IMG/VR virus record: IMGVR_UViG_3300025674_000502
Coordinates: 1-20,626 of that record
Length of the DNA: 20,626 nt
Origin: a virus
Direction: 5' to 3' (one strand)
Shown piece by piece: positions 1,598-13,650 of the stretch. The first letter of the stretch is position 1; the number at the start of each line of letters is the position of its first letter. Made by a program: the position numbers and the translations under genes. The notes under the pieces are model-generated. The model did not search any database. It saw only the letters and a list, made by a program, of their open reading frames with translations, and was not told the DNA's origin.

Positions 1598-3223
1598 TTA
1601 ATCACTTATTTCCCAATAAATTTGTCCACTTTTTCTAACATCATCTGGAGCAACAAAAGCCGGTGGATGAGTTCCTTCTGATAACATCAAGGCGTCGATA
1701 TTCCATTCTGCAGGACCACTTAACGATTGAACTGTAATCCTACCAGTTATACTTGTTTCATTTGCGTCAGCAGAAGCTGTATTCCTTATAATGACTGGAT
1801 CCCATTTAAATTTTTCTGTAGTCGCTGTTACAGCCGCTGAGTTACTTAAATGTCCTAAAGTAAATACAACTCTTGCAGACGTAGATCCCGATGTGTTTAA
1901 CAATCTTAATTGACAAACATAATCATTATTATCAAATAAAAACTCACTACAATAATCTATATCGTGTATTGCTCCTTCATCAGCTGCAAACGTGCGAACT
2001 CTAACACCAGATGTACCAGTCCATATTTGTTTATCATCAACAGCTACACTTTCATTACCTGTTGAAGCAGTCCATTCATTATCTGCCTCTACAATAAGAT
2101 TTTGAACACCTTCCTCAAAAGTTAATGTAGTGTTTAAGTTATCCAACACTAATAAACCACCATTATCTGGTGTCCCTGTTCTTAATAATGGAAAGGCACT
2201 AGCTCCACCAAATATACCATGTTGTTCATCAGAGAAATCTGTAGCACCTTCAAAAAATATAGGTGTTGCGTTATGTTCATTATTTGTGCTATCAACAACT
2301 GAATCGGGAACTGAGGCAAATATTTGAAAAGCAGATATAGATTCAAATCTCCACCAACCCACACAGTAGTCTGCAGATGGAGAACATTCAATAAACATTC
2401 TACTTAGAGGATCAGCTTGATCGGTGTATAATCCAATACTAGTTAATGAAGCCAATTCATTAATAGCGTTATCACTAGCTGTTATTGACCACAAACGCAT
2501 TTCATCTAACTTACCTTTAAAATTAATAGAACTTTCTCTTACTGGTAATGGTGAACCTGTAGATGGAAGAGCTAAACTAGGGTTACCCCATAAATCTAAA
2601 TTTGCGACAGTTTCAGATCTTTCTAAAACACCGTCAACATATATACTTAAAAGTCCTGTGTTAAAAGGGTCACCAGATGTATACATAGTCACAATGTGTT
2701 TCCAAGTATTTGTAGATATTGGACCTGATGATGTTAGACTTAAGGCTATATTTGTATCATAAGCAAATTGGAAATCTAAATACCAAGCGGAACTACTATC
2801 TCCTTCTGGGTCTGTATAAACTAATCTGTTTGAATATATACCATCATAACCAACTGTTGTAACAAATTCATTTCTTTGTATAGTTGCATCAAACCACTCT
2901 AACACCTCTCCTGCAAGTGGAGATGGTGTTTCTATCTTCATCCATGTTTCAAACATTATACCACTAGCTGCAGCAGCTGCGTTGCTCACAGAGTCTAATA
3001 GGAACTCTGTACCAAGTCCTTCAGAAGTAGGTAGTAACATTCTTTCACCCACACCCTCAAACTCTATAGATTGTTTTGAACCTGTCAAATTACCATTCCA
3101 CAAGCCTGTAACGCCATTAGTTGGAGTATCAGTTAAATCAATAGTATCTGGGTCTTCTATCGCTCTAGATAAAACATATTGAAATGTTCCATCAGCCTCT
3201 GGTTCTATAAATCTAAATGCCAT
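1598..3223 (-). CDS. LamG-domain virion structural protein with C-terminal carbohydrate-module-like domain (541 aa)
   Basis: This protein opens MAFRFIEPEADGTFQY. Residues of roughly 50-260 form a LamG-like domain, with 'IMFETWMKIETP', 'NTWKHIVTMY' near residue 172, 'LSIYVDGVLERS' and 'FKGKLDEMRLW' near 235. A second domain, about 360-525, has a jelly-roll-like strand pattern ending 'WNIDALMLSEGTHPPAF', reminiscent of carbohydrate-binding modules that end in W-x-I/L-D. That assignment is from memory and weaker than the LamG call. Several cysteines (around 280-290 and 425-435) are unusual for this region, but no disulfide claim can be made. The gene starts 8 nt after the 299-residue paralogue, with an AGGATAAG ribosome-binding site before the ATG. 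A role as an adhesin or tail-fibre-associated protein is inferred from the domains and neighbours. Confidence 0.8.
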   Translation of the reverse strand: MAFRFIEPEADGTFQYVLSRAIEDPDTIDLTDTPTNGVTGLWNGNLTGSKQSIEFEGVGERMLLPTSEGLGTEFLLDSVSNAAAAASGIMFETWMKIETPSPLAGEVLEWFDATIQRNEFVTTVGYDGIYSNRLVYTDPEGDSSSAWYLDFQFAYDTNIALSLTSSGPISTNTWKHIVTMYTSGDPFNTGLLSIYVDGVLERSETVANLDLWGNPSLALPSTGSPLPVRESSINFKGKLDEMRLWSITASDNAINELASLTSIGLYTDQADPLSRMFIECSPSADYCVGWWRFESISAFQIFASVPDSVVDSTNNEHNATPIFFEGATDFSDEQHGIFGGASAFPLLRTGTPDNGGLLVLDNLNTTLTFEEGVQNLIVEADNEWTASTGNESVAVDDKQIWTGTSGVRVRTFAADEGAIHDIDYCSEFLFDNNDYVCQLRLLNTSGSTSARVVFTLGHLSNSAAVTATTEKFKWDPVIIRNTASADANETSITGRITVQSLSGPAEWNIDALMLSEGTHPPAFVAPDDVRKSGQIYWEISD

Positions 3224-3231
3224 ATCTTATC

Positions 3232-4131
3232 CTATATATCTATTGAAACTCTAAGTGTTATTGGTAAATCTGTTGGTTTTTTAAGTGGTTTAGTTAATTT
3301 AGCTATTGCAAGTAGTTCATTATCATCATTATATAAACCAACTGAAGTTATAAATGGAGAAAAATCATATCCAGATAATGTCAAATCTTCCCATATAGTA
3401 AATGAATTTGTTTCTGAGGTTAATGATGATTTTGTGTATAAATTATCAAAACCTTGAGCTAAACTTGATGATGAAAGACTAGCTGTAGATGCAGCGGTAT
3501 GATTTAAACTAAAATTCAATTCATTTGGTTGACACTTACAAAAAACATTAAAATTTGTATGCTGCATTCTTGTTTTAAAAGATACAGATGTTATTGATGT
3601 TGCAATTTCTCTATAATCAGAAGATGTTACAACTAAAAGTCCTTCATCTAAAAAAACAGTTCCTAACTTATCACCATTACTACTCCTAACCAAATTACCA
3701 TATTCATCAGAATAATATTCATCAGCGATACTATTACCACTAAAGTTTAATCCAGTAGCTGTAGCTGTTAAACTACCGCTTAAAACACCAATATCAAAAG
3801 TATTTTTTTTAAGAGCGAATATTCCTAATGCATTACCTGTTGTTGCAGTCAAAGATTTATCATAACCTCTATTAACCATTATTCTTCTAACAACATTCCA
3901 ATATGCAGAGTTACTTCCATTATAAGAAGCAGTCATTGCACATACTGAATCATTAGGCGAACTAACTATATTGTGATCGTTTATACCTTTAATTTCTGGG
4001 CAAATTATATTATCAATAATTTTTAATTTTGAAGTTTCAAAATTAGTTATTATTTGATCAGCTAAATCAATAGAAACATAGCCGCCTTCTACACTTTTAT
4101 CTACTTTAATAGGTACTGTAGGATTACTCAT
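3232..4131 (-). CDS. Virion structural protein, short member of the three-gene paralogous family (299 aa)
   Basis: This is one of three consecutive related proteins. It shares with them a middle segment 'LSGSLTA' (about 117-123), a 'GTVFLDEGLLVV' strand (157-168) and a C-terminal motif 'FITSVGLYNDDNELLAIAK' (260-278). That motif is followed by exactly 21 residues to the end, as in the other two. The motif resembles the 'E-V/I-G-L-F/Y-D-x-D-G-x-L-I/L-A-I/V-A' signature of phage tail-collar fibre domains, though here it is C-terminal rather than N-terminal. The N-terminus (1-110) is unlike the other two and contains Cys44 and Cys64. Another pair, 'CKC', lies further on. Start: ATG at 4129-4131 after TAGGAAA. 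Stop: TAG. The preceding 770-residue gene ends 8 nt upstream. A tail or baseplate-peripheral structural role is inferred. Confidence 0.75.
   Translation of the reverse strand: MSNPTVPIKVDKSVEGGYVSIDLADQIITNFETSKLKIIDNIICPEIKGINDHNIVSSPNDSVCAMTASYNGSNSAYWNVVRRIMVNRGYDKSLTATTGNALGIFALKKNTFDIGVLSGSLTATATGLNFSGNSIADEYYSDEYGNLVRSSNGDKLGTVFLDEGLLVVTSSDYREIATSITSVSFKTRMQHTNFNVFCKCQPNELNFSLNHTAASTASLSSSSLAQGFDNLYTKSSLTSETNSFTIWEDLTLSGYDFSPFITSVGLYNDDNELLAIAKLTKPLKKPTDLPITLRVSIDI
3313..3356 (-). repeat. 44-bp direct repeat, copy 1 (299-residue paralogue)
   Basis: These 44 bases are identical, in the same orientation, to 6538-6581. They encode residues 259-273 of the 299-residue protein, within the motif FITSVGLYNDDNELLAIAK. 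Flanking DNA quickly diverges. Confidence 0.95.
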
Positions 4132-4139
4132 TTTATTTC

Positions 4140-6452
4140 CTAAAAATCAAGTTTAATTTGTGTTTCTAATCTTATACTATTATCTTTTTTAATTGGCCTT
4201 GATAATTTACCAATAGCTAGTAAATCACCATTATAATTATACATACCAACAGTGGTTATAAATGATGTCGGAGAATCAAATATATTTTCTTGAGTCTCTG
4301 GGTTTTTTCCTGTTTGGTTGTTAGTTATATTAAATTCATTACCTTCTGCAACTGCGTTTAACAAAAGCCTTCCTTTGTTGCTAACAGCATTCCACCTTAT
4401 TCTTTCTATATTAAAAGATGTGTTTTCTGGATCTGTAACATTAAATCCAAATTGATTACCACTAGTTGGCCAAGTAAAATTAATTAAAGTGTTTGGATCA
4501 TCAGCATCAAAAACAATTTCAGAGGTATCATAAAATAAAATCCCTATTCTTTTAATATCACCTTGAACACCTAATCTAAAAATTCTGGCTTGGTTTAAAT
4601 CATTAGCTAATGGTTTCTTTAACTGGGGTTGATCAGAATATAAGAATGTTCTATCTATAGAACTAGCAGATAAATCAGTGAAAACATTACCACTACTACC
4701 CAATGTTAAATCTTTAAAATCGTAAAGATTAATTAACCCATTACCAACAACATATCCAGTGCTAGAAGATAAATTACCAGTTGGATCATTAGTCATAGAA
4801 GCAGTATCACCAGTGAGTCCACCGGCTATATCCGCAGCAGTAATAGAGTTTAAATTATTAAAATTCCACCAAGCCACAATATTAGCACCACTAGTTGAGG
4901 TTAATGATGAACTATAAAAATTATTAAATGTTTCACCTAAAGGATTACTACTTAATATAGTAGTACCATCTGGTGAAGGAATTAGATTATTTATATTTTC
5001 TTTATAATTAGATGTTGAATCTCTAAGTCTATGATTCCAAATTCTTAAATGTTGTATTTGCCCATCATATAATCCTTCTAAATAAAAATCGTTTTCATCA
5101 ACTAATTCGCCAATATCACCATTTCTATCATTATCAATTCTATTAAAATTAGATGCACCTATATATATATTATTTCCACTAGGTCCATCCAAAACATCTG
5201 TGCTTCTTAATCTTTGTTTTCTAATAGGTATTCTTTGTTCTAACATATTTGCTTGAACAACCGGACCATTTGAACTATCAGATCCTTGTAATCTTGGTAT
5301 TACTTGTTCTTTATTTAATAATTTATATCCATCAATATAACCCATAACAAGACCAGAACCATTCTCCGCAGTTCCTATATTAGTGCCGTTACCCAATTCA
5401 TAAATAGACCATGTAACTACTATATGATGAAACTTCCCATCAAATAAATTAATACCAACATCTTCCGGTATAAAAAGTCCAGAAGCTTGTATATGTTCAT
5501 TTGCAAAATCTTCGTTAAAATTAGACTCAGTTCTACTTGAATATGTATTTGTATTGTCTGGATAAGTCATAGTATTTCTTATATAAAAACGAAATGCATT
5601 TTTCTGACCATCTGGAGATTTTGTTAATTCTAATTTTAAGAATTTATCTCTTGTTTTAGATTCATTAGTATTGGCTAATCTTCTAAATAATATTGTAGAA
5701 GATTCTTTATAAGGCCTTATAATAGCCTCCACAGTTATACCATCAACAATATTATCTAAACTATCACCAGCATGATAGGTACTCCTATTCATAGGTATGC
5801 CAAAAAAACTTTTTCTACTTTGTTGTGTTGCGTTTTTTAAATCAAGTGCAGCGGTAAAACCACTCACATTAGTATCAGTAAAATCAGCTAACCCACTTAC
5901 ACCATTAGTATATCCAGTTACAGCTCCTCTTATACCTCTATTTATTTCTATTTTCATACTAGTTGGTTTAACACCATCATAACTTATATCTTTTCTCAAA
6001 GATATTAGTCTTAATGTTGATATATCAACACTGGTTGATGAACTTCTTAAAGCTGTGATAGATGGGTTGTAATCGTTATCTTCTCTATACAAATAACCTT
6101 GAATGTGATCAAATATTCTTTGTTGCTGTTGAGTGTTGATTGTACCTTCAGATGTTGTATAAACTTGATCAGCACTACTACTATAAACACCAGTAATTAT
6201 ATCTGCAGAAAGAGATTGACCTAAAAGAGGTATTGATGTAAAATCAAACTTATATTTTATTTCTTTTTTATCTAATAAACCGAAATCAGATTGTTCATCG
6301 CCTACTAATGTTCCAATCTTGCCAAGCGTTCTTATGCCAGTTAAGAATGATACACTATTTGAAATAGCACTATCTTCTGATAATGTTAAATTTACTTGAC
6401 CATCTACACTGTATGGTTGTATGTTACCTTCATCAAAAGCTTTAAATGCCAT
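4140..6452 (-). CDS. LamG-bearing large member of the paralogous structural family (770 aa)
   Basis: This looks like a family member of about 290 residues split by a large insertion. Residues 1-170 resemble the N-terminal half of the 289-residue neighbour ('RIFDHIQGYLY' versus 'AFRHISHYYF', then a strand ending near 'SMKIEINRG'). Residues 620-770 match the shared C-terminal half ('GILFYDTSEIVF' at 637-648 and 'FITTVGMYNYNGDLLAIGK' at 732-750, 21 residues from the end). In between lies a LamG-like domain (about 235-480) with 'ITVEAIIRPYKESSTILF', 'KFHHIVVTW' near 340, 'MGYIDGYKLL', 'NIYIGAS' and 'GQIQHLRIWNHRLRD'. A linker with 'NIVAWWNFNN' follows. The start ATG at 6450-6452 lies 4 nt after the previous stop without a clear ribosome-binding site, suggesting translational coupling. 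A receptor-recognition role is inferred. Confidence 0.82.
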   Translation of the reverse strand: MAFKAFDEGNIQPYSVDGQVNLTLSEDSAISNSVSFLTGIRTLGKIGTLVGDEQSDFGLLDKKEIKYKFDFTSIPLLGQSLSADIITGVYSSSADQVYTTSEGTINTQQQQRIFDHIQGYLYREDNDYNPSITALRSSSTSVDISTLRLISLRKDISYDGVKPTSMKIEINRGIRGAVTGYTNGVSGLADFTDTNVSGFTAALDLKNATQQSRKSFFGIPMNRSTYHAGDSLDNIVDGITVEAIIRPYKESSTILFRRLANTNESKTRDKFLKLELTKSPDGQKNAFRFYIRNTMTYPDNTNTYSSRTESNFNEDFANEHIQASGLFIPEDVGINLFDGKFHHIVVTWSIYELGNGTNIGTAENGSGLVMGYIDGYKLLNKEQVIPRLQGSDSSNGPVVQANMLEQRIPIRKQRLRSTDVLDGPSGNNIYIGASNFNRIDNDRNGDIGELVDENDFYLEGLYDGQIQHLRIWNHRLRDSTSNYKENINNLIPSPDGTTILSSNPLGETFNNFYSSSLTSTSGANIVAWWNFNNLNSITAADIAGGLTGDTASMTNDPTGNLSSSTGYVVGNGLINLYDFKDLTLGSSGNVFTDLSASSIDRTFLYSDQPQLKKPLANDLNQARIFRLGVQGDIKRIGILFYDTSEIVFDADDPNTLINFTWPTSGNQFGFNVTDPENTSFNIERIRWNAVSNKGRLLLNAVAEGNEFNITNNQTGKNPETQENIFDSPTSFITTVGMYNYNGDLLAIGKLSRPIKKDNSIRLETQIKLDF

Positions 6453-6456
6453 GGTC

Positions 6457-7326
6457 TTAGTATTGTAGTCTTACAGAAAATGTTTTTTCATTTTCAAATG
6501 TTTTCTTTACTGGTGGAGAAACTTTTGCGATAGCTAATAGTTCATTATCATCATTATATAAACCAACTGAAGTTATAAATGTTGTTGGGTTTGAAGTCAA
6601 TGAACCAGTAATACTTCCTAAAGTTTGATCCTTAAGAGAAGTTATATTATTAGTATAATTAAACTCTTTATTTAAAGCTCTACAGAAGAAAGAAGTTCTC
6701 TTAATTTTATTAATTGTTTTAAAACTCAAACTATTAATAGCTATTTTTTCAGCAGTAGCTCCGGTTCCAAAAGTAAAACCAGAAACAGAGTCAGTTAAGA
6801 AGTTAGTTCCTGTGTCTCCTCCATGAAATATTAAAGTACCTGTATCATAAAATATTGTACCTACAATATTTGTTTCATCATTCTTTTCTACTAAATCACC
6901 TCGTCTTCCGATGCTCTTATTGATAATATCTTCTGGTATATCAATAAAAGTTAATTCACTTACAACATCAAAAGACATAACAGCTGTAACACTACCACTT
7001 AAAATAGTATCATCTGTTGTAGTTCTTCCAATTTGTATGGCTCTAAATATGTTTGTAGTATTACTATTATCTTGAGCTATAGGTATAGAACTATCCGCTG
7101 AAGAAGAAAAGTAATAATGAGAAATATGCCTAAATGCCGAACTTAATGGTGTAGTTGTTATTGTTCCTTGAGAGTTAACAAGAAAACTAGTAGAACTAGC
7201 TTCGGACACAAAAGAAAAAATATTTCTTGCTGTAGCTCCTGTAGGTGAGTCTATAACATAATTTGTTCTATACTCTACCTCACTATTTGAAATATCTTGA
7301 TCTAAATTAAAAGAATTAAGTGACAT
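6457..7326 (-). CDS. Virion structural protein, minimal member of the paralogous family (289 aa)
   Basis: This protein contains the complete family architecture without an insertion. The N-terminal half has 'AFRHISHYYFSSS' (64-76) and 'ILSGSVTAVMSF' (108-119). It continues with 'GTIFYDTGTLIF' (156-167), a 'SLSFKT' strand, 'SFFCRALNKEFNY', and the C-terminal motif 'FITSVGLYNDDNELLAIAK' (250-268) placed 21 residues before the end. It shares 44 identical bases with the 299-residue paralogue over that motif. The closing motif resembles tail-collar fibre domains, but I cannot place the whole protein in a named family. The start ATG at 7324-7326 follows AAGGAA at good spacing. The preceding tail-collar-like gene ends 10 nt upstream. 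It is probably an anchor or adaptor for distal tail proteins (inference). Confidence 0.75.
   Translation of the reverse strand: MSLNSFNLDQDISNSEVEYRTNYVIDSPTGATARNIFSFVSEASSTSFLVNSQGTITTTPLSSAFRHISHYYFSSSADSSIPIAQDNSNTTNIFRAIQIGRTTTDDTILSGSVTAVMSFDVVSELTFIDIPEDIINKSIGRRGDLVEKNDETNIVGTIFYDTGTLIFHGGDTGTNFLTDSVSGFTFGTGATAEKIAINSLSFKTINKIKRTSFFCRALNKEFNYTNNITSLKDQTLGSITGSLTSNPTTFITSVGLYNDDNELLAIAKVSPPVKKTFENEKTFSVRLQY
6538..6581 (-). repeat. 44-bp direct repeat, copy 2 (289-residue paralogue)
   Basis: These bases are identical to 3313-3356 and encode residues 249-263 of the 289-residue protein in the same frame. The 770-residue paralogue between them has only a diverged version of this stretch. 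Confidence 0.95.
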
Positions 7327-7336
7327 ATTTTTTCCT

Positions 7337-7906
7337 TTATGTGGTTGCTGTAGAACTTACTGTTAAAGTAAACTCTTTTCGTGCGCCTGTATTAATACCA
7401 ATAATATCAACAATAGTTGTTCCACTAGCACCACCAGCGTTAGAACCAGTTCTTAAGGTAAAAGTACCTATACCATTTTCATCAGGAATAGCTGTTATAT
7501 TTTCCAAAACAGCTATTGTTGTATCTCTAACCGTAGCACTATATCCCTGTGAATCAACACCATTATCAGTACTAACCTGCACGAAAACATCATTACCAAA
7601 GTCAGTTGTTGCTATTGTTGGTTCTAATGTTAACGTTGATATTTTTAAAGTACCCTCTGGTAGAGTAACTAATCTACTTAGTAATGCCACTTCATCATTA
7701 GAAATTGGTTCTAATACAGGTAAGTTGATAATATCTTGTTCTGGATTAATTGTATTAGTAACGTCAAAAAGTTGGTAGTTTATTTCGTCATCACCAAATG
7801 CAAATTTTGTAATTTGAAAACTACCATCATTTTTTGCAAGTAATTCTCTACCCTTTTGAGTAAGAATTGCGTCGATGACCGCTGTTGAAGAATCAAGAAA
7901 TGCCAA
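7337..7906 (-). CDS. Tail-collar-like virion structural protein (189 aa), TTG start
   Basis: The protein begins MAFLDSSTAVIDAILTQKG, followed by 'RELLAKNDGSFQITKFAFGDDEINY'-type sequence (residues 20-44). This is the pattern 'ILT-x-x-G-x-x-x-L...I-x-x-F-A-x-G-D-D' seen in tail-collar fibre N-terminal domains and, as I recall, in a common structural protein of marine T4-like phages. The second half is Thr/Ser-rich and beta-like, with two strand pairs ending 'EFTLTVSSTATT'. The start is TTG (7904-7906), chosen because it gives the conserved MAFLD start and has a strong AGGAG seven bases upstream, with no nearby in-frame ATG. A 64-nt gap, long for this window, precedes it. The gene opens the adhesin block and is probably an adaptor between baseplate and fibres (inference). 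Confidence 0.72.
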   Translation of the reverse strand: MAFLDSSTAVIDAILTQKGRELLAKNDGSFQITKFAFGDDEINYQLFDVTNTINPEQDIINLPVLEPISNDEVALLSRLVTLPEGTLKISTLTLEPTIATTDFGNDVFVQVSTDNGVDSQGYSATVRDTTIAVLENITAIPDENGIGTFTLRTGSNAGGASGTTIVDIIGINTGARKEFTLTVSSTATT

Positions 7907-7970: not shown

Positions 7971-8636
7971 TCAAGAAGAAGTTGTTTTTCTACTATTTCT
8001 TTTTGCACGAGGCTTTTTGATCACTTCTTCCTTAACTTCCTCTACAACTTCTTCCTTAACTTCCTCTACAACTTCTTCCTTAACTTCCTCTACAGGAGAT
8101 GCAGGATTTTCAGATGGAACTACTTCTGTTATATTAGGTTGAACACGAGCTGTTTTTATATCATGCACAACCTCAAAATTATCATCTTCTGTTCTTCTAA
8201 TTATTAATTCAAGACTCATAAATCTATTACCTGGTTGTGATATCGCGTTAACAATATGGTTAATATTAACTTTTTCACTATGATCAAAGTAAAGAATATT
8301 TATACTTCTTAGAGATTGACCCGTACCATTTCTTCTTGTTATAAACTCTTCTAAATTATCATCTTCTGTTACTGTTATGTTTTTTATAGCGTTTAATCTC
8401 TTATGTTCTCTAACACTTTGTGTGTATTTATCTATTGAGTGTTCCATAGCATAAACCCTAGAAACAACTTTGCTAAGTTCCATACTCAAAATACCAGTTG
8501 CAGCTCCAACTTCTAAAATATTAGAAGTAGATAAATCGCCTTTTCTTTCTTTTAAAAGAGCTATCAACTCATCTATTTTTTCATATGAGATATGTTGATA
8601 ATTTCCATTATGTTTATAATAATCGTAAAAATTCAT
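7971..8636 (-). CDS. SAM-dependent methyltransferase-like protein with acidic repeat tail (221 aa)
   Basis: Residues of about 38-145 resemble a class I (Rossmann-fold) methyltransferase. There is a glycine-rich motif I 'NILEVGAATGIL' (39-50), an acidic residue ending strand 2 (Glu65 in 'VYAMEH'), 'TEDD' (90-93), and a motif-IV-like strand 'INILYFDHS' (112-120). The order and spacing recall FkbM-type enzymes. The C-terminus (182-205) is three perfect copies of VEEVKEEV encoded by a 24-bp repeat, then a basic tail 'KKPRAKRNSRKTTSS'. The substrate is unknown. Its place between the wedge gene and the fibre genes suggests modification of a virion protein or a structural adaptor role, but a nucleic-acid or small-molecule target is not excluded. 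Start: ATG at 8634-8636 after AGGAG. Stop: TGA. Whether it is catalytically active cannot be told from sequence alone. Confidence 0.7.
   Translation of the reverse strand: MNFYDYYKHNGNYQHISYEKIDELIALLKERKGDLSTSNILEVGAATGILSMELSKVVSRVYAMEHSIDKYTQSVREHKRLNAIKNITVTEDDNLEEFITRRNGTGQSLRSINILYFDHSEKVNINHIVNAISQPGNRFMSLELIIRRTEDDNFEVVHDIKTARVQPNITEVVPSENPASPVEEVKEEVVEEVKEEVVEEVKEEVIKKPRAKRNSRKTTSS
8023..8094 (-). repeat. Three perfect tandem copies of a 24-bp unit inside the methyltransferase-like gene
   Basis: The copies 8023-8046, 8047-8070 and 8071-8094 are identical. They are in frame and encode VEEVKEEV three times. Because the unit is a multiple of three, copy number can change without a frameshift. 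The identity of the copies implies recent expansion. Confidence 0.95.
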
Positions 8637-8648
8637 TTTTCACTCCTT

Positions 8649-11600
8649 TTATGTTCTAACTTTTTCTACACCTTGTTGTGTTATTTGTCTGATAAAATCA
8701 GTATCTCTATTAACATCTGAATTTATACCAACTCTAAAAACATATGTTAAATCGTTAAATAAGTTTGTTACCTTGATAGGAACAATACCAATACTTCCAG
8801 ATATACTATCATCTACTATATTTTGTGTAATACCATTTGGAATATCAACAGCACTTAAAGAAGTAACAACGTCTGCAAGTGTTAGTTTAAATTGTATTTC
8901 ATCTTTAGCTAAAGGTATTGAAATTCCTATATCCTTTTCTTTTATTATTCTACCTTCACCAGCATCTATATCTCCAACTTCTGCAATAAATAAATTAGTT
9001 CCATCCGCGGATGCAGGAAATTCAAACTTTAAAGAATTAGAATCAGTTTTGAAAGCCTTACCATTAACAATTAATTTTATTCTTCCACTTATAAAACCCT
9101 TTGAAGAAGTCGCGCTTTCAATTGGTGATATTATAAGTTGGTCTAATGTTATATCAACTTCACTTTGTTCTGGACTTGCTGGAGAAGTTTTAACAGGAAA
9201 AAATCTACCAAATCTAGTAGGTGAAAAAGTTGGAAAATTAACACTGCTATTTTTTGTAACATTAGGTAAAAGTGATTCTTCGTTTATTTCACTTTGTAGA
9301 GAATCTTGCACAGCATTCTCTCTATATTGATAACCTTGAAATGTAGCTGTTGTTGCTGCGCTAGCTGTTAAATCAACATAATTACCAGATGTTGAATCAT
9401 TAATAGCTAAATCACCCGGTGTATATTTATTACTTATTTTTAATTCAAAGTTATTTTGTTCTACTATATTAGGAATAGCGTTATATGCAGATGAACCTTC
9501 ATCCAAAGAAAAAACATTACCATCTGCAGTTAAACTATCTTCTGTAAAAACATCTAATTTATTAAACCTATAACCAAAAACTCTTCTCATTTTACTGCGT
9601 TCTAGTATATGAGGTTCAATAAATATACCTTCTGATAATATATTTGTTCTAGCTGGTATGAATTGTTTTACAAAACTAAATAACCCTCCAAAAGTATCAT
9701 TAAAATTACCCAAAGCTTTTATGAAGGTGTTAGTATCAGAAATACCATATGTGTTACCAGATGTTCCTGTAGATGAATCATCACTTACATAAGATGTAGA
9801 TAGCCCCCACATTGAACTTATTTCATGCCACTTAATAACAAAATCACTTGTATATTTTTTTGCTGTATGATCTTCTGTATTACCCATTAAGTCATATAAG
9901 TTAATATCACTTATATAATTTCTTATTTCATCACTTATAACACCTATTGGATTTAATGATAAACTTATATACCCTATGTCTTTTTGATAGCTACTTACAT
10001 CATCTTGTCTTATTCTATCATTATCAACACCTAATCCTGCAGGATAGTAATTTATTATCTTTTTAACATCTGAAAATACTTTGTAATTTTTATTTGTTAA
10101 ACTAAAACCAACTGGTGTGGCTGTTGTACCAGCAGTTGCAGAGTTAACTATAAAATTATATTGTCCTTTAAGTATTATGTTTTCTTTTAATTTATAATGA
10201 GATTGTAAATTACCATAAGTTACAGGTGTAGATGCATTTTTAGAGTTTTCTATAGATACAGACTCAAAGTTTTTCGTATGTTCTTTTAAATCATCATCTA
10301 ATAATGCAGCATCCCAAGTTCTAACCTCACTTATATAACCATTAAAATTAGATGGAGATGGAAAGAAAGTAGATCCTCCAACAGTACCACCTGTCGAATC
10401 ATAACTCTCAGCTCCAACTGTAGGATCATTGTAACTATTTTCAGAAACAACAACAATATCATTACCACCTGTTGGAGAACCCGACAAAGCCATAACATAA
10501 ACACTTAATGTATCACCACTTCTTGAAGCAGAAACATTAACAAAACTGTTTTGTTGTGCCATATAAGAAGATATTGACGATTTAGGTGTTGTTGTTGTAA
10601 CAGTTGGAGTTGTTACAGAACTAAAAGTAGCTTGACCTTCATTATTAATTTTTAATGAATATAATGGGTGTTCTATAATTGTATTTTCAGTTCCAGATGT
10701 TAACGAAACTCTTGATTCGATAGTAAAATCTTGAGATGCTGCAAAATCAAAAGATAATGAACTACCAGTTGTAGAATTAACTGTTGTAGCAACATAAACT
10801 GTTCCATCTGAGTATAAACAAGGAACATCAACCTCTTCCTCATTCCTAACCAACACAGGGCCACTAAAAAGAGAATATTCGTTAGCTTTTATGAATTTTC
10901 TATCTACACCATAAAGTCTACTTATAGATTCAACAGCTTCTCTTGTACCTTTTGTTTTTAATATATGAGATACATTATTTAATATCCTCTTCCAAACTTC
11001 ATAAGTAATTTGTTTTGATGTATATCCACCAGAGGCAGAATTAACCAAACTTCTGGATATATCAATATTACTTGCGGAATCAAACAATTCTATACCAAAT
11101 TCCCTAGCTAAAACAGGTAAAAATTGATTTGGAACTCTTTTATAGTCATCATAAGATATTGTTCTATTGTAAGGCATATAATCAATAAACAATCTTAATT
11201 CATCAAGTTGTTCCGCAAAAGCAGCTAAAGTTCTACTTAAAACTTCATCGTCATCACCAAGAAACAATACTTCGGGTAAAAGATTATCAAGTTGTTGATA
11301 CCTAGCAACCTCTCTTTCACCACTAATTCCAAACACATCAGTAATACCTCTAACAGCCGTTCCAGATGTATCAATAAAACTAGCAGTTCCAGATTGAGTT
11401 TCAAAATACTCTAATCCTAATTCTTCATATCTATTAATTCTATCTGTTAAAGAAGAAACAATTGTAGATTGTGGACTTTGTATATTATTACTTGAATCTC
11501 TTACAATATGTATTAATGATACTTGTTCACCTTGAGGGTTAGTAGCTGCAGCGGTAATAGAATACTTCTTTGTATCACTTATATCATTTTTACTTAACTC

Positions 11601-11915
11601 TTCTAACAACCATAAATCAAAACCATCAGATTCTTTTATATACTTGTCAACAGCATAAACATCAGCTGGACCTAAAGAACCTACAGAAGCGCCTGCTAAA
11701 CCTATGGGGTATTCTGTTCTTATTCTACTGAGTGCAGCAGAATATCTTTTAGATCCATTACCAAAAAACATATGTTGTGATAATTCACTATAATCAACTA
11801 ATGGTCTTGTTTGTTCACTCTTAGCTGTTAAAGATAAAGCAGCCAGATCTGCAGATGTGCTACCTGCAGCAGATAAAGACTGCAGTAAACTTTCTATTGT
11901 GATACCTTCTGCCAT
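8649..11915 (-). CDS. Large baseplate wedge protein, tail-protein-I / gp7-like, with LamG domain (1088 aa)
   Basis: Residues of about 205-345 resemble phage tail protein I (P2 gpI type). They run 'LDNLLPEVLF', 'LSRTLAAFAEQLDELRLFID', 'FLPVLAREFGIELFD', then 'VWKRILNNVSHILKTKGTRE' with 'AVESISRLYGV'; the last is the conserved 'KGT-x-x-x-(I/V)-x-x-x-(L/I)-x-x-(L/Y)-G' hallmark. A LamG-like domain follows (about 370-560: 'FTIESRVSLTSG', 'NSFVNVSASRSGDTLSVYV', 'FNGYISEVRTWDAALLDDDL'). The C-terminal third is beta-rich and ends in Ig-like strands. T4 gp7, the wedge protein that pairs with gp6, has a similar size (about 1030 residues from memory). Position downstream of gp6 fits a gp7/gpI role. Start: ATG at 11913-11915 with AGAGAA upstream. 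The LamG part makes it unusual for a wedge protein. Confidence 0.8.
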   Translation of the reverse strand: MAEGITIESLLQSLSAAGSTSADLAALSLTAKSEQTRPLVDYSELSQHMFFGNGSKRYSAALSRIRTEYPIGLAGASVGSLGPADVYAVDKYIKESDGFDLWLLEELSKNDISDTKKYSITAAATNPQGEQVSLIHIVRDSSNNIQSPQSTIVSSLTDRINRYEELGLEYFETQSGTASFIDTSGTAVRGITDVFGISGEREVARYQQLDNLLPEVLFLGDDDEVLSRTLAAFAEQLDELRLFIDYMPYNRTISYDDYKRVPNQFLPVLAREFGIELFDSASNIDISRSLVNSASGGYTSKQITYEVWKRILNNVSHILKTKGTREAVESISRLYGVDRKFIKANEYSLFSGPVLVRNEEEVDVPCLYSDGTVYVATTVNSTTGSSLSFDFAASQDFTIESRVSLTSGTENTIIEHPLYSLKINNEGQATFSSVTTPTVTTTTPKSSISSYMAQQNSFVNVSASRSGDTLSVYVMALSGSPTGGNDIVVVSENSYNDPTVGAESYDSTGGTVGGSTFFPSPSNFNGYISEVRTWDAALLDDDLKEHTKNFESVSIENSKNASTPVTYGNLQSHYKLKENIILKGQYNFIVNSATAGTTATPVGFSLTNKNYKVFSDVKKIINYYPAGLGVDNDRIRQDDVSSYQKDIGYISLSLNPIGVISDEIRNYISDINLYDLMGNTEDHTAKKYTSDFVIKWHEISSMWGLSTSYVSDDSSTGTSGNTYGISDTNTFIKALGNFNDTFGGLFSFVKQFIPARTNILSEGIFIEPHILERSKMRRVFGYRFNKLDVFTEDSLTADGNVFSLDEGSSAYNAIPNIVEQNNFELKISNKYTPGDLAINDSTSGNYVDLTASAATTATFQGYQYRENAVQDSLQSEINEESLLPNVTKNSSVNFPTFSPTRFGRFFPVKTSPASPEQSEVDITLDQLIISPIESATSSKGFISGRIKLIVNGKAFKTDSNSLKFEFPASADGTNLFIAEVGDIDAGEGRIIKEKDIGISIPLAKDEIQFKLTLADVVTSLSAVDIPNGITQNIVDDSISGSIGIVPIKVTNLFNDLTYVFRVGINSDVNRDTDFIRQITQQGVEKVRT

Positions 11916-11929
11916 TTATTTGTTCTCTT

Positions 11930-13393
11930 TTATTTTACGAAAAAATTCCATTTTTCTGGTTCGTCATAAACTATCTTTTCGCCTCTAACATTTAATTTTA
12001 AAACTATTTTATATTCAATATCTGGATATAAGTTATTAGTGTTCAATTCAAAGAAATTTCCTCTTTCATCATATGATAAATCAGTTTCTTGAACTTCTAC
12101 CATATCAGTAGACTTTTCTCTTATTTCAAATGTTGAGTTTTTAGCTATAAAACTATCAATAGCTGTGCTAGAACCAGTTAATGTTGTAAGAATAGTTCCC
12201 TTATCTCTAATAAAAACTCTAATATTAACAATACTTCCTAAGTCATATTCATACTTAGCGTTCATTAAATTAACTTGATAGTTTGATGTATTAAGGTAAG
12301 AGTTGTTACCTACAGAAGATTTAGCGTTAAAATTAAATGTGTTAGTTATCTCAAACCCAGCTGCTGTAACAGCCCAACTGTCAGTAAACACATCAGTTGC
12401 ACTTGTTGCGATATTCACGCCAGTTAGCGTTTCATCTAAATGATTCTTAGCTGTTCCTATATCAAGGAAATAAATACCTTTAGATAATCTAGCAGCAGTT
12501 AATGAACTTGGTTCTATAGCAACCCCATCAGCACTTAGTGTAACATATCCGGGAAACTTACCTGTTCCATCTAAATCCTCTAATACTCCATCATTATAAT
12601 TATAGAAAAATAAATTAGCTGAACTAGAATAATTAACACTCTTTCTATCGTCTTTTATAGCTCCTGGCCATTCTAACTGAAGATAAGGTCTTCTTCTACT
12701 ATTAGTCTCTCTACCATAAAACTTCTTAGTAAAAAAACTAACACCCGTAACTGAAGTAGGAGCACCGGCAGCCGTAGCTTCAGCGTCTGTTTGAGCTTCT
12801 TGAAAATCAGACATTCTAAGTAAAAATCCATAATTACCACTTGAACCATCTAAATATTCTTTAAACCAATCTGTTACATTTAGTTTTAAATCCTCTTCCC
12901 CTGTAGAGAAATACATTGAAGCTGAGTTAGAGTCATAATTGCCATCATCACTACCTAAATAAGCTTCACCACCGGTGCCTGCATTTAAATCTGTCCAAAG
13001 ATTAACATTATCTGCATAAAATGCATTAGCAAATCCTGTGTGTGAATAACTATCATTATCTAAACCTGTACCTTCAATCCAATTAGCAGTTAATGGAAAA
13101 GCCCATATATCAAAATTTGATGCCTGTGTATCACCATGTGGAGCATTAAACATATAAATATAAGCACTAACTGTTCCATCTGTTCTTGGATCTGGATATA
13201 TTTTAGTGTTTTTTATACCCTCTTCAACATCAGTAAGTGAGAAACGAACTAACGCTCTTGCTAATTCTTTTTTATTTGAATTATAATCAAATTTATTCCA
13301 TATCTCTATTATAGGAGAAAGTCCAAAATTAGCTGCAGTAGAGGATTCTGTAATCCAAGTATCTTGATCAGCATATGATCTTATTTTTGACAT
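11930..13393 (-). CDS. DNRLRE-domain-like virion structural protein (487 aa)
   Basis: The N-terminal half (about 1-245) matches the DNRLRE/CBM96 pattern. It begins 'SYADQDTWITESSTAANFG', then a paired strand 'IIEIWNKFDYN', 'ALVRFSLTDVEEG', 'SAYIYMFNA', 'FDIWAFPLTANWIEGTG', 'LKLNVTDWFKEYLDGSSGNY', and a closing 'RRRPYLQLEW'. DNRLRE domains are beta-sandwich modules found in secreted and phage structural proteins. They may bind carbohydrate, though that is not established here. The C-terminal half is beta-rich with no family I recognise and ends 'DEPEKWNFFVK'. The gene overlaps the HNH nuclease gene by 13 nt. Its ATG (13391-13393) is preceded by GAGAAGAA. Located between gp6-like and gpI/gp7-like wedge genes, it is probably a baseplate or tail-peripheral component (inference). 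Confidence 0.78.
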   Translation of the reverse strand: MSKIRSYADQDTWITESSTAANFGLSPIIEIWNKFDYNSNKKELARALVRFSLTDVEEGIKNTKIYPDPRTDGTVSAYIYMFNAPHGDTQASNFDIWAFPLTANWIEGTGLDNDSYSHTGFANAFYADNVNLWTDLNAGTGGEAYLGSDDGNYDSNSASMYFSTGEEDLKLNVTDWFKEYLDGSSGNYGFLLRMSDFQEAQTDAEATAAGAPTSVTGVSFFTKKFYGRETNSRRRPYLQLEWPGAIKDDRKSVNYSSSANLFFYNYNDGVLEDLDGTGKFPGYVTLSADGVAIEPSSLTAARLSKGIYFLDIGTAKNHLDETLTGVNIATSATDVFTDSWAVTAAGFEITNTFNFNAKSSVGNNSYLNTSNYQVNLMNAKYEYDLGSIVNIRVFIRDKGTILTTLTGSSTAIDSFIAKNSTFEIREKSTDMVEVQETDLSYDERGNFFELNTNNLYPDIEYKIVLKLNVRGEKIVYDEPEKWNFFVK

Positions 13394-13650
13394 ATTTCTT
13401 CTCTAAATTCATAATTAAGTTTTAAACTATATCCGTAATCATCCCAACCTTTTATTAATAAATATCCGTTATGAACCATTCTATGATGATTTGGACATAA
13501 CCACACTCTATTTAACCCATAATCAGAACCACCTTCTGATTTATGTATTATATGGTGATTATCCACAGCTTTTGACTCACCACATATTTCACATCTTTTA
13601 CATGCTTTGGAAAACTTTTGGTTTATTGGTAATCTTTTTCTTCTACTCAT
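13381..13650 (-). CDS. Small free-standing HNH endonuclease (89 aa)
   Basis: This is a compact HNH nuclease. It has a zinc-knuckle Cys20-x2-Cys23, the catalytic 'DNHH' (30-33), an Asn at 47 in 'GLNRVWLCPNHH', Cys52/His55 as the second metal pair, and His56 and His60. A basic N-terminus 'MSRRKRLPINQK' would favour DNA contact. No LAGLIDADG, GIY-YIG or DNA-binding repeat (NUMOD) is visible. HNH nucleases cut DNA by metal-dependent hydrolysis, and free-standing ones in phages often act as homing endonucleases. The gene is wedged between gp6-like and DNRLRE genes. It shares TAATG with the gp6 stop upstream and overlaps the next gene by 13 nt, so it depends on the structural operon's transcript. 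An origin as an inserted mobile gene is likely but unproven. Confidence 0.88.
   Translation of the reverse strand: MSRRKRLPINQKFSKACKRCEICGESKAVDNHHIIHKSEGGSDYGLNRVWLCPNHHRMVHNGYLLIKGWDDYGYSLKLNYEFREEICQK

Follow-up and report, generated by a model that had tools for sequence, protein, structure and literature searches.

A LamG-type domain apparently inserted at a beta-hairpin of a phage scaffold protein, next to an uninserted sister copy

Two adjacent genes of a viral contig encode proteins of very different size, p770 and p289, the ends of the larger resembling the two halves of the smaller. Is p770 a version of its neighbour that was interrupted by a recognition domain, and what could such a protein do? 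The window analysed here is the entire virus record, 20,626 bases, and all its likely genes are on the minus strand. In reading order, it includes a gp25-like gene, a gp6-like gene, an HNH gene, the gene of a 1088-aa protein, p189, p289, p770, p299, p541 and p443, the last of which is a second LamG protein beside p541 (Table 1). Just upstream of the p770 cluster are found the genes of the gp25-like wedge protein (PF04965, E 7e-8), of the gp6-like wedge protein (phrog_219, E 9e-32), and of the 1088-aa protein, which has a Tail_P2_I domain. The presence of these three genes nearby places p770 among the tail genes of a contractile-type phage.

Table 1. Features of the p770 locus, and loci of relatives in which the gene is split
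Feature	Window coordinates	Strand	Evidence or remark
p770, scaffold-family protein with LamG-containing insert	4140..6452	-	single ORF, 770 aa; 12 aligned complete orthologs
p770 residues 1 to ~175, scaffold N-terminal half	5928..6452	-	profile match to C0/C1 families
p770 residues ~176-600, insert of ~425 residues	4653..5927	-	HMM matches stop before and resume after
LamG/ConA-like jelly roll, residues ~186-482 (FHHIVVTW, GYIDG, GNNIYIGAS, YDGQIQHLRIWN)	5007..5897	-	profile match to p541 family; Foldseek
Post-LamG segment with IVAWWNFNN motif, residues ~520-600	4653..4895	-	c3ins HMM matches p541 orthologs over part of the stretch
p770 residues ~601-770, scaffold C-terminal half	4143..4652	-	BLAST E 2e-14 to p289; C0 HMM 187-387
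Family-defining C-terminal module, p770 residues 675-770 (NEFNxTxN ... FITTVGMYNxxxxLLAIxKLSxPIKK)	4143..4430	-	E 1e-23
p289, uninserted sister copy (C0 type), 289 aa	6457..7326	-	BLAST; tree, 95/88
p289 residues ~119-124, predicted beta-turn equivalent to the insertion point	6955..6972	-	AlphaFold strands 114-119 and 122-131; HMM junction 200/201
p299, second uninserted paralogue (C1 type), more distant than p289	3232..4131	-	sequence comparison; tree
p189, conserved gene adjoining the p289-type gene in most family loci	7337..7906	-	ORF of ~190-235 aa, same place
p541, LamG protein	1598..3223	-	Pfam PF13385, E 3e-10
C2 loci with gene split at second hairpin site			L036, L037, L039, L050, L055, L058, L063, L065, L068, L071, L073, L079, L087
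C6 loci with gene split at second hairpin site			L049, L070

Some other features of the region deserve mention. The HNH endonuclease gene is small (window 13381-13650, PF01844) and sits between the gp6-like gene and p487. The 1088-aa Tail_P2_I protein (window 8649-11915) has a LamG-like stretch at residues 390-542, with an E value of 5e-4 that is under the Pfam cut-off; by its sequence, it may be another internal insert. A 221-aa protein (window 7971-8636) has a weak similarity to methyltransferases and an acidic, repetitive tail (EEVKEEVVEEVKEEVVEEVKEEV).

A first reading of the locus, made from its sequence only, had proposed that both ends of p770 line up with the two halves of p289. For the C-terminal halves the relation was detected by BLAST, with 35% identity between p770 627-756 and p289 139-275 (E 2e-14). 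Pairwise, the N-terminal halves were found to be weakly similar (p770 60-142 against p289 12-93, E 0.02-0.05). A profile of residues 1-186 made from the p770 orthologs scored 37.5 against the uninserted C0 proteins (p289 type) and 38.6 against the C1 proteins (p299 type), above the maxima of 22.4 (C0) and 23.3 (C1) reached in 100 column permutations, and the scores of 11-12 given by the reversed profile. The N-terminal half, with its PGS-type strand ahead of the C-terminal module, is present in p770 according to this profile match. Larger family profiles were needed for this result, as the N-terminal homology escaped hhalign when the alignments were small and uniform. Profile and BLAST comparisons confirm the proposed relation: p770 and p289 belong to one family, and both flanks of p770 are homologous to the halves of p289, in the same order.

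The flanks are also collinear. One p770 ortholog (L020) matches the C0 model from position 132 to 200, then from 201 to 387, with the insert in between, so that the positions split by the insert are adjacent in the model (200/201 junction). The p770 protein is therefore the long form, i.e. the short form plus an internal insert. The insert itself had been recognised from the start, with limits at about residues 172 and 620; the matches place these limits at ~176 and ~600. In the AlphaFold model of p289, of moderate quality overall (mean pLDDT 65, reaching 85-86 in blocks 111-130), the insertion point corresponds to a predicted turn between two strands. The model of p770, computed with its orthologs, had a pLDDT of 37, and below 50 for residues 1-237, leaving the flanks unusable. 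That the flanks of p770 fold together as one domain is supported but not proven. Using Foldseek, no PDB match below E 0.001 was found for the p289 model; among viral models, the good matches were phage proteins either uncharacterised or annotated as LamG/ConA. No solved structure matched the scaffold, nor did Pfam, PHROGs or PDB name or match it.

What does the insert contain? Motifs of the LamG kind can be read in its sequence (FHHIVVTW, GYIDG, IQHLRIWN), and the sequence-only reading had assigned it a LamG-like domain. The Pfam Laminin_G models found no match in p770 or in its 12 aligned orthologs. However, the insert profile scored 46.7 against the Pfam-positive p541 LamG family (null maximum 24.6), and 37.1 against the LamG inserts of the C4 proteins, another group of relatives (null maximum 22.9). 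A Foldseek search with the low-confidence p770 model (pLDDT 37) returned laminin LG4-5 (E 1e-3, probability 1.0), as well as NanC and related jelly rolls; because of the low confidence of the model, we count this match as supporting evidence only. The LamG/ConA fold of the insert, missed by Pfam and backed by profiles and structure search, is thus supported, short of proof. A DUF900 match in p770 was weak (E 0.013, below the cut-off), and was set aside as chance. The p541 protein, which has a segment similar to that of p770 after its LamG domain, is by sequence the closest relative of the insert that was detected. Local acquisition of the insert would fit, the similarity being too weak to show descent.

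Scans of viral contigs yielded p770 orthologs, of which the 12 that were aligned are complete, 724-819 aa long and 42-52% identical to p770, and all 12 have kept the insert. Its counterpart is absent from p289, p299 and the other uninserted members. The gene order p189, p289, p770, p299, p541 is common to the orthologs, with small extra ORFs in between in some of them. On one contig (L029:7608-10738), the p770 ortholog is in two ORFs (235 and 527 aa) and the p289 ortholog is shortened, by either decay or an assembly error. In a broader scan, at least 568 relatives were confirmed, and the best 80 loci were kept. Across the loci kept from the scans, the C-terminal module of ~100 residues is found in at least 201 proteins, and it ends 10 aa or less from the C terminus in 198 of 201. 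Clusters of the family comprise C0 and C1, C3 for p770, plus other large forms.

Several of these large forms have inserts of their own. The C4 proteins match the C1 model up to ~154 and resume at ~155, with ~270-350 residues in between (most clearly in L052 and L100), and Laminin_G_3 was detected in 15 of the 16 C4 and C6 proteins. The C4 insertion site is the next hairpin (GNL/VGNIFY), ~25 residues away from the p770 site. The large inserts of the C6 and C2 proteins are at this hairpin as well. FG-GAP repeats were present in all 16 complete C2 proteins scanned, and in one case (L056) a single chain runs from the N half through the FG-GAP region to the C half. In the C2 proteins, another insert separates the NPT motif from the last strands and gives a weak dockerin-like match; near the same region, L085 has an insert with a weak DUF642 match. 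Finally, a protein of 1394 aa (L101) combines LamG at the GNL/VGNIFY site with another long insert beyond that hairpin; it shows 'SPDG'-type repeats that look propeller-like by eye and that Pfam does not name. Different insertions at one same loop had been anticipated among relatives, which the survey bears out for the most part. Other inserts do exist in the family, but most of them, LamG included, are at the next hairpin. Insertion at two hairpins is well supported; the other sites are leads.

We consider it likely that p770 is a structural protein of the tail region, made of a tandemly duplicated p289-type scaffold with a LamG insert in a beta-hairpin turn, displayed so as to bind a glycan of the host surface. 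A p289-type gene would have been duplicated in tandem, and one copy would have taken up, at the hairpin turn, DNA for a LamG-type jelly roll and its trailing segment. Both scaffold halves would still fold together around the insert, the scaffold anchoring p770 at or near the baseplate, probably via the conserved C-terminal module, and the LamG domain would point outward and bind the glycan; p289 and p299 would have retained the bare scaffold. We infer the place of p770 in the virion and, from the fold of the insert, its glycan binding. The insert might instead be structural, a spacer or a stabilising jelly roll that binds no glycan, a purely structural role being possible for jelly rolls in virions. 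This is a less likely reading, as unrelated folds, LamG and FG-GAP repeats, do the same job in relatives, a pattern more usual for surface recognition.

The history of the locus was examined with a tree built on the C-terminal module (109 columns only, midpoint root). The p770 (C3) clade was sister to the clade of the window's p289, with supports of 95/88. Outside of these two, 41 other C0 rows formed their own branch (99/93), and C1, C4, C6 and C9 were on the far side of a 100/95 split. With p770 sister to p289, and most other C0-type relatives outside, the simplest account is that a tandem duplication came first and the insertion after it. Because p289 is the closest paralogue of p770 and has no insert, and because the insert breaks one collinear fold at a hairpin, the description of p770 as an inserted member beside an uninserted sister holds. 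Inserted relatives are common in the family, and one could propose that the ancestor had LamG and that p289 is a deletion product. How firmly loss and insertion can be told apart is limited by the midpoint root; still, loss is improbable, since the 41 outside C0-type rows are of uninserted size or have extra sequence that is mainly N-terminal, and since the LamG-bearing C4 proteins are across the 100/95 split, on the C1 side, with their insert one hairpin further. Forcing all LamG-bearing forms into one clade gave an AU p value of 0.04, so that one common origin for every LamG insert is rejected by a narrow margin only, and forcing C4, C6 and C9 together was not rejected (p 0.244). LamG inserts were probably gained independently at least twice, and given these two values we claim no count beyond that.

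The scaffold gene is split in most C2 loci and both C6 loci: a separate ORF just upstream, of 188-248 aa, encodes the N half, and its match stops around model position 153-169. The insert and the C half are encoded by the ORF that follows. Stop and start codons overlap or nearly touch in several split loci (ATGA in L087, L079 and L050, TAATG in L049), and across loci the identity between N-half ORFs goes down to 30%; a sequencing error as the cause of the split is therefore ruled out. In L038, other genes are found between the N half and the C half. In L048 (8253-11501), the N-half ORF is 1082 aa long, the N half being followed by MBG_3 and YDG repeat domains. The split halves would presumably associate after translation, and such lineages offer natural split versions of the same scaffold. 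They do indicate that each half is able to exist as its own chain, but that the p770 flanks are separate domains matching two parts of p289, p770 being a fusion rather than a split fold, is very improbable, since the relatives of the C0 and C1 clusters (145 proteins together, among the loci kept) have both halves joined directly in a single short chain, and since the break falls at a predicted hairpin turn rather than in a linker.

Taken more generally, the p289 scaffold could serve for display in a large group of contractile-tailed phages, most of them uncultured, an extension that we regard as evenly balanced. Recognition domains of unrelated kinds (LamG, FG-GAP propeller, dockerin-like or DUF642-like) would have been taken up repeatedly at two or more neighbouring beta-hairpins, and probably at other loops too; some lineages would have had the gene cut at the insertion site and the halves reassembled from separate chains. 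The add-on domains would probably let the phage grip different bacterial surfaces. The interest of the p770 locus is that it offers, in one genome, a clear before-and-after pair for the acquisition of recognition domains by phages. The family, common in viral contigs yet unnamed in Pfam, PHROGs and PDB, would also mark the likely sites of swappable, host-facing parts in many uncultured phages.

Among cultured phages, HMM searches found family members in Rhodothermus phage RM378 (Rm378p128), Flavobacterium phage immuto (immuto35A_164 and _165) and Microcystis phage Mel-JY01 (WWT39513-WWT39517), all annotated as hypothetical only. In Mel-JY01 (L113:10325-19271), five members are in tandem, of 357, 352, 954, 718 and 591 aa, the last of which has a Pfam-positive LamG insert. 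The 954- and 718-aa members have long N-terminal extensions without Pfam match. In immuto, the family is flanked by baseplate genes on one side and, on the other, by genes with tail fibre and tail spike annotations. A full-text search of part of the literature returned no virion proteomics for immuto and no report of the scaffold family, and our literature search found no binding data for the family. As far as we found, the scaffold family, the pattern of neighbouring hairpins and the split forms appear new.

The principle of domain insertion is known from the evolved Dit (evoDit) proteins. In siphophages of Gram-positive bacteria, these have carbohydrate-binding modules in loops of their beta domain, and such inserts promote adsorption to saccharide-coated hosts (PMC7291167, PMC10688798). 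By analogy with the evoDit inserts, p770 is most likely a tail-tip scaffold displaying a swappable recognition domain. In both systems, one tail protein exists in an uninserted ('classical') and an inserted ('evolved') form. That the scaffold is itself a Dit protein was rejected: p289 matched nothing in PHROG, Pfam or PDB, Dit included, and the p770/p289 scaffold has no detectable sequence relation to Dit. The setting differs as well, being a contractile-type baseplate cluster (gp25, gp6), and the inserts are LamG or FG-GAP repeats rather than BppA-type modules. Moreover, the inserted and bare copies are here side by side in one genome, and two lineages have a gene split where the insertion lies. 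LamG/ConA-like domains (Laminin_G_3, PF13385) have been reported on tail fibres and other virion components of jumbo phages (PMC7824862). Compared to these phage tail lectin domains, the p770 insert would be of the same fold type, but it is too divergent for Pfam, and it is placed inside another fold.
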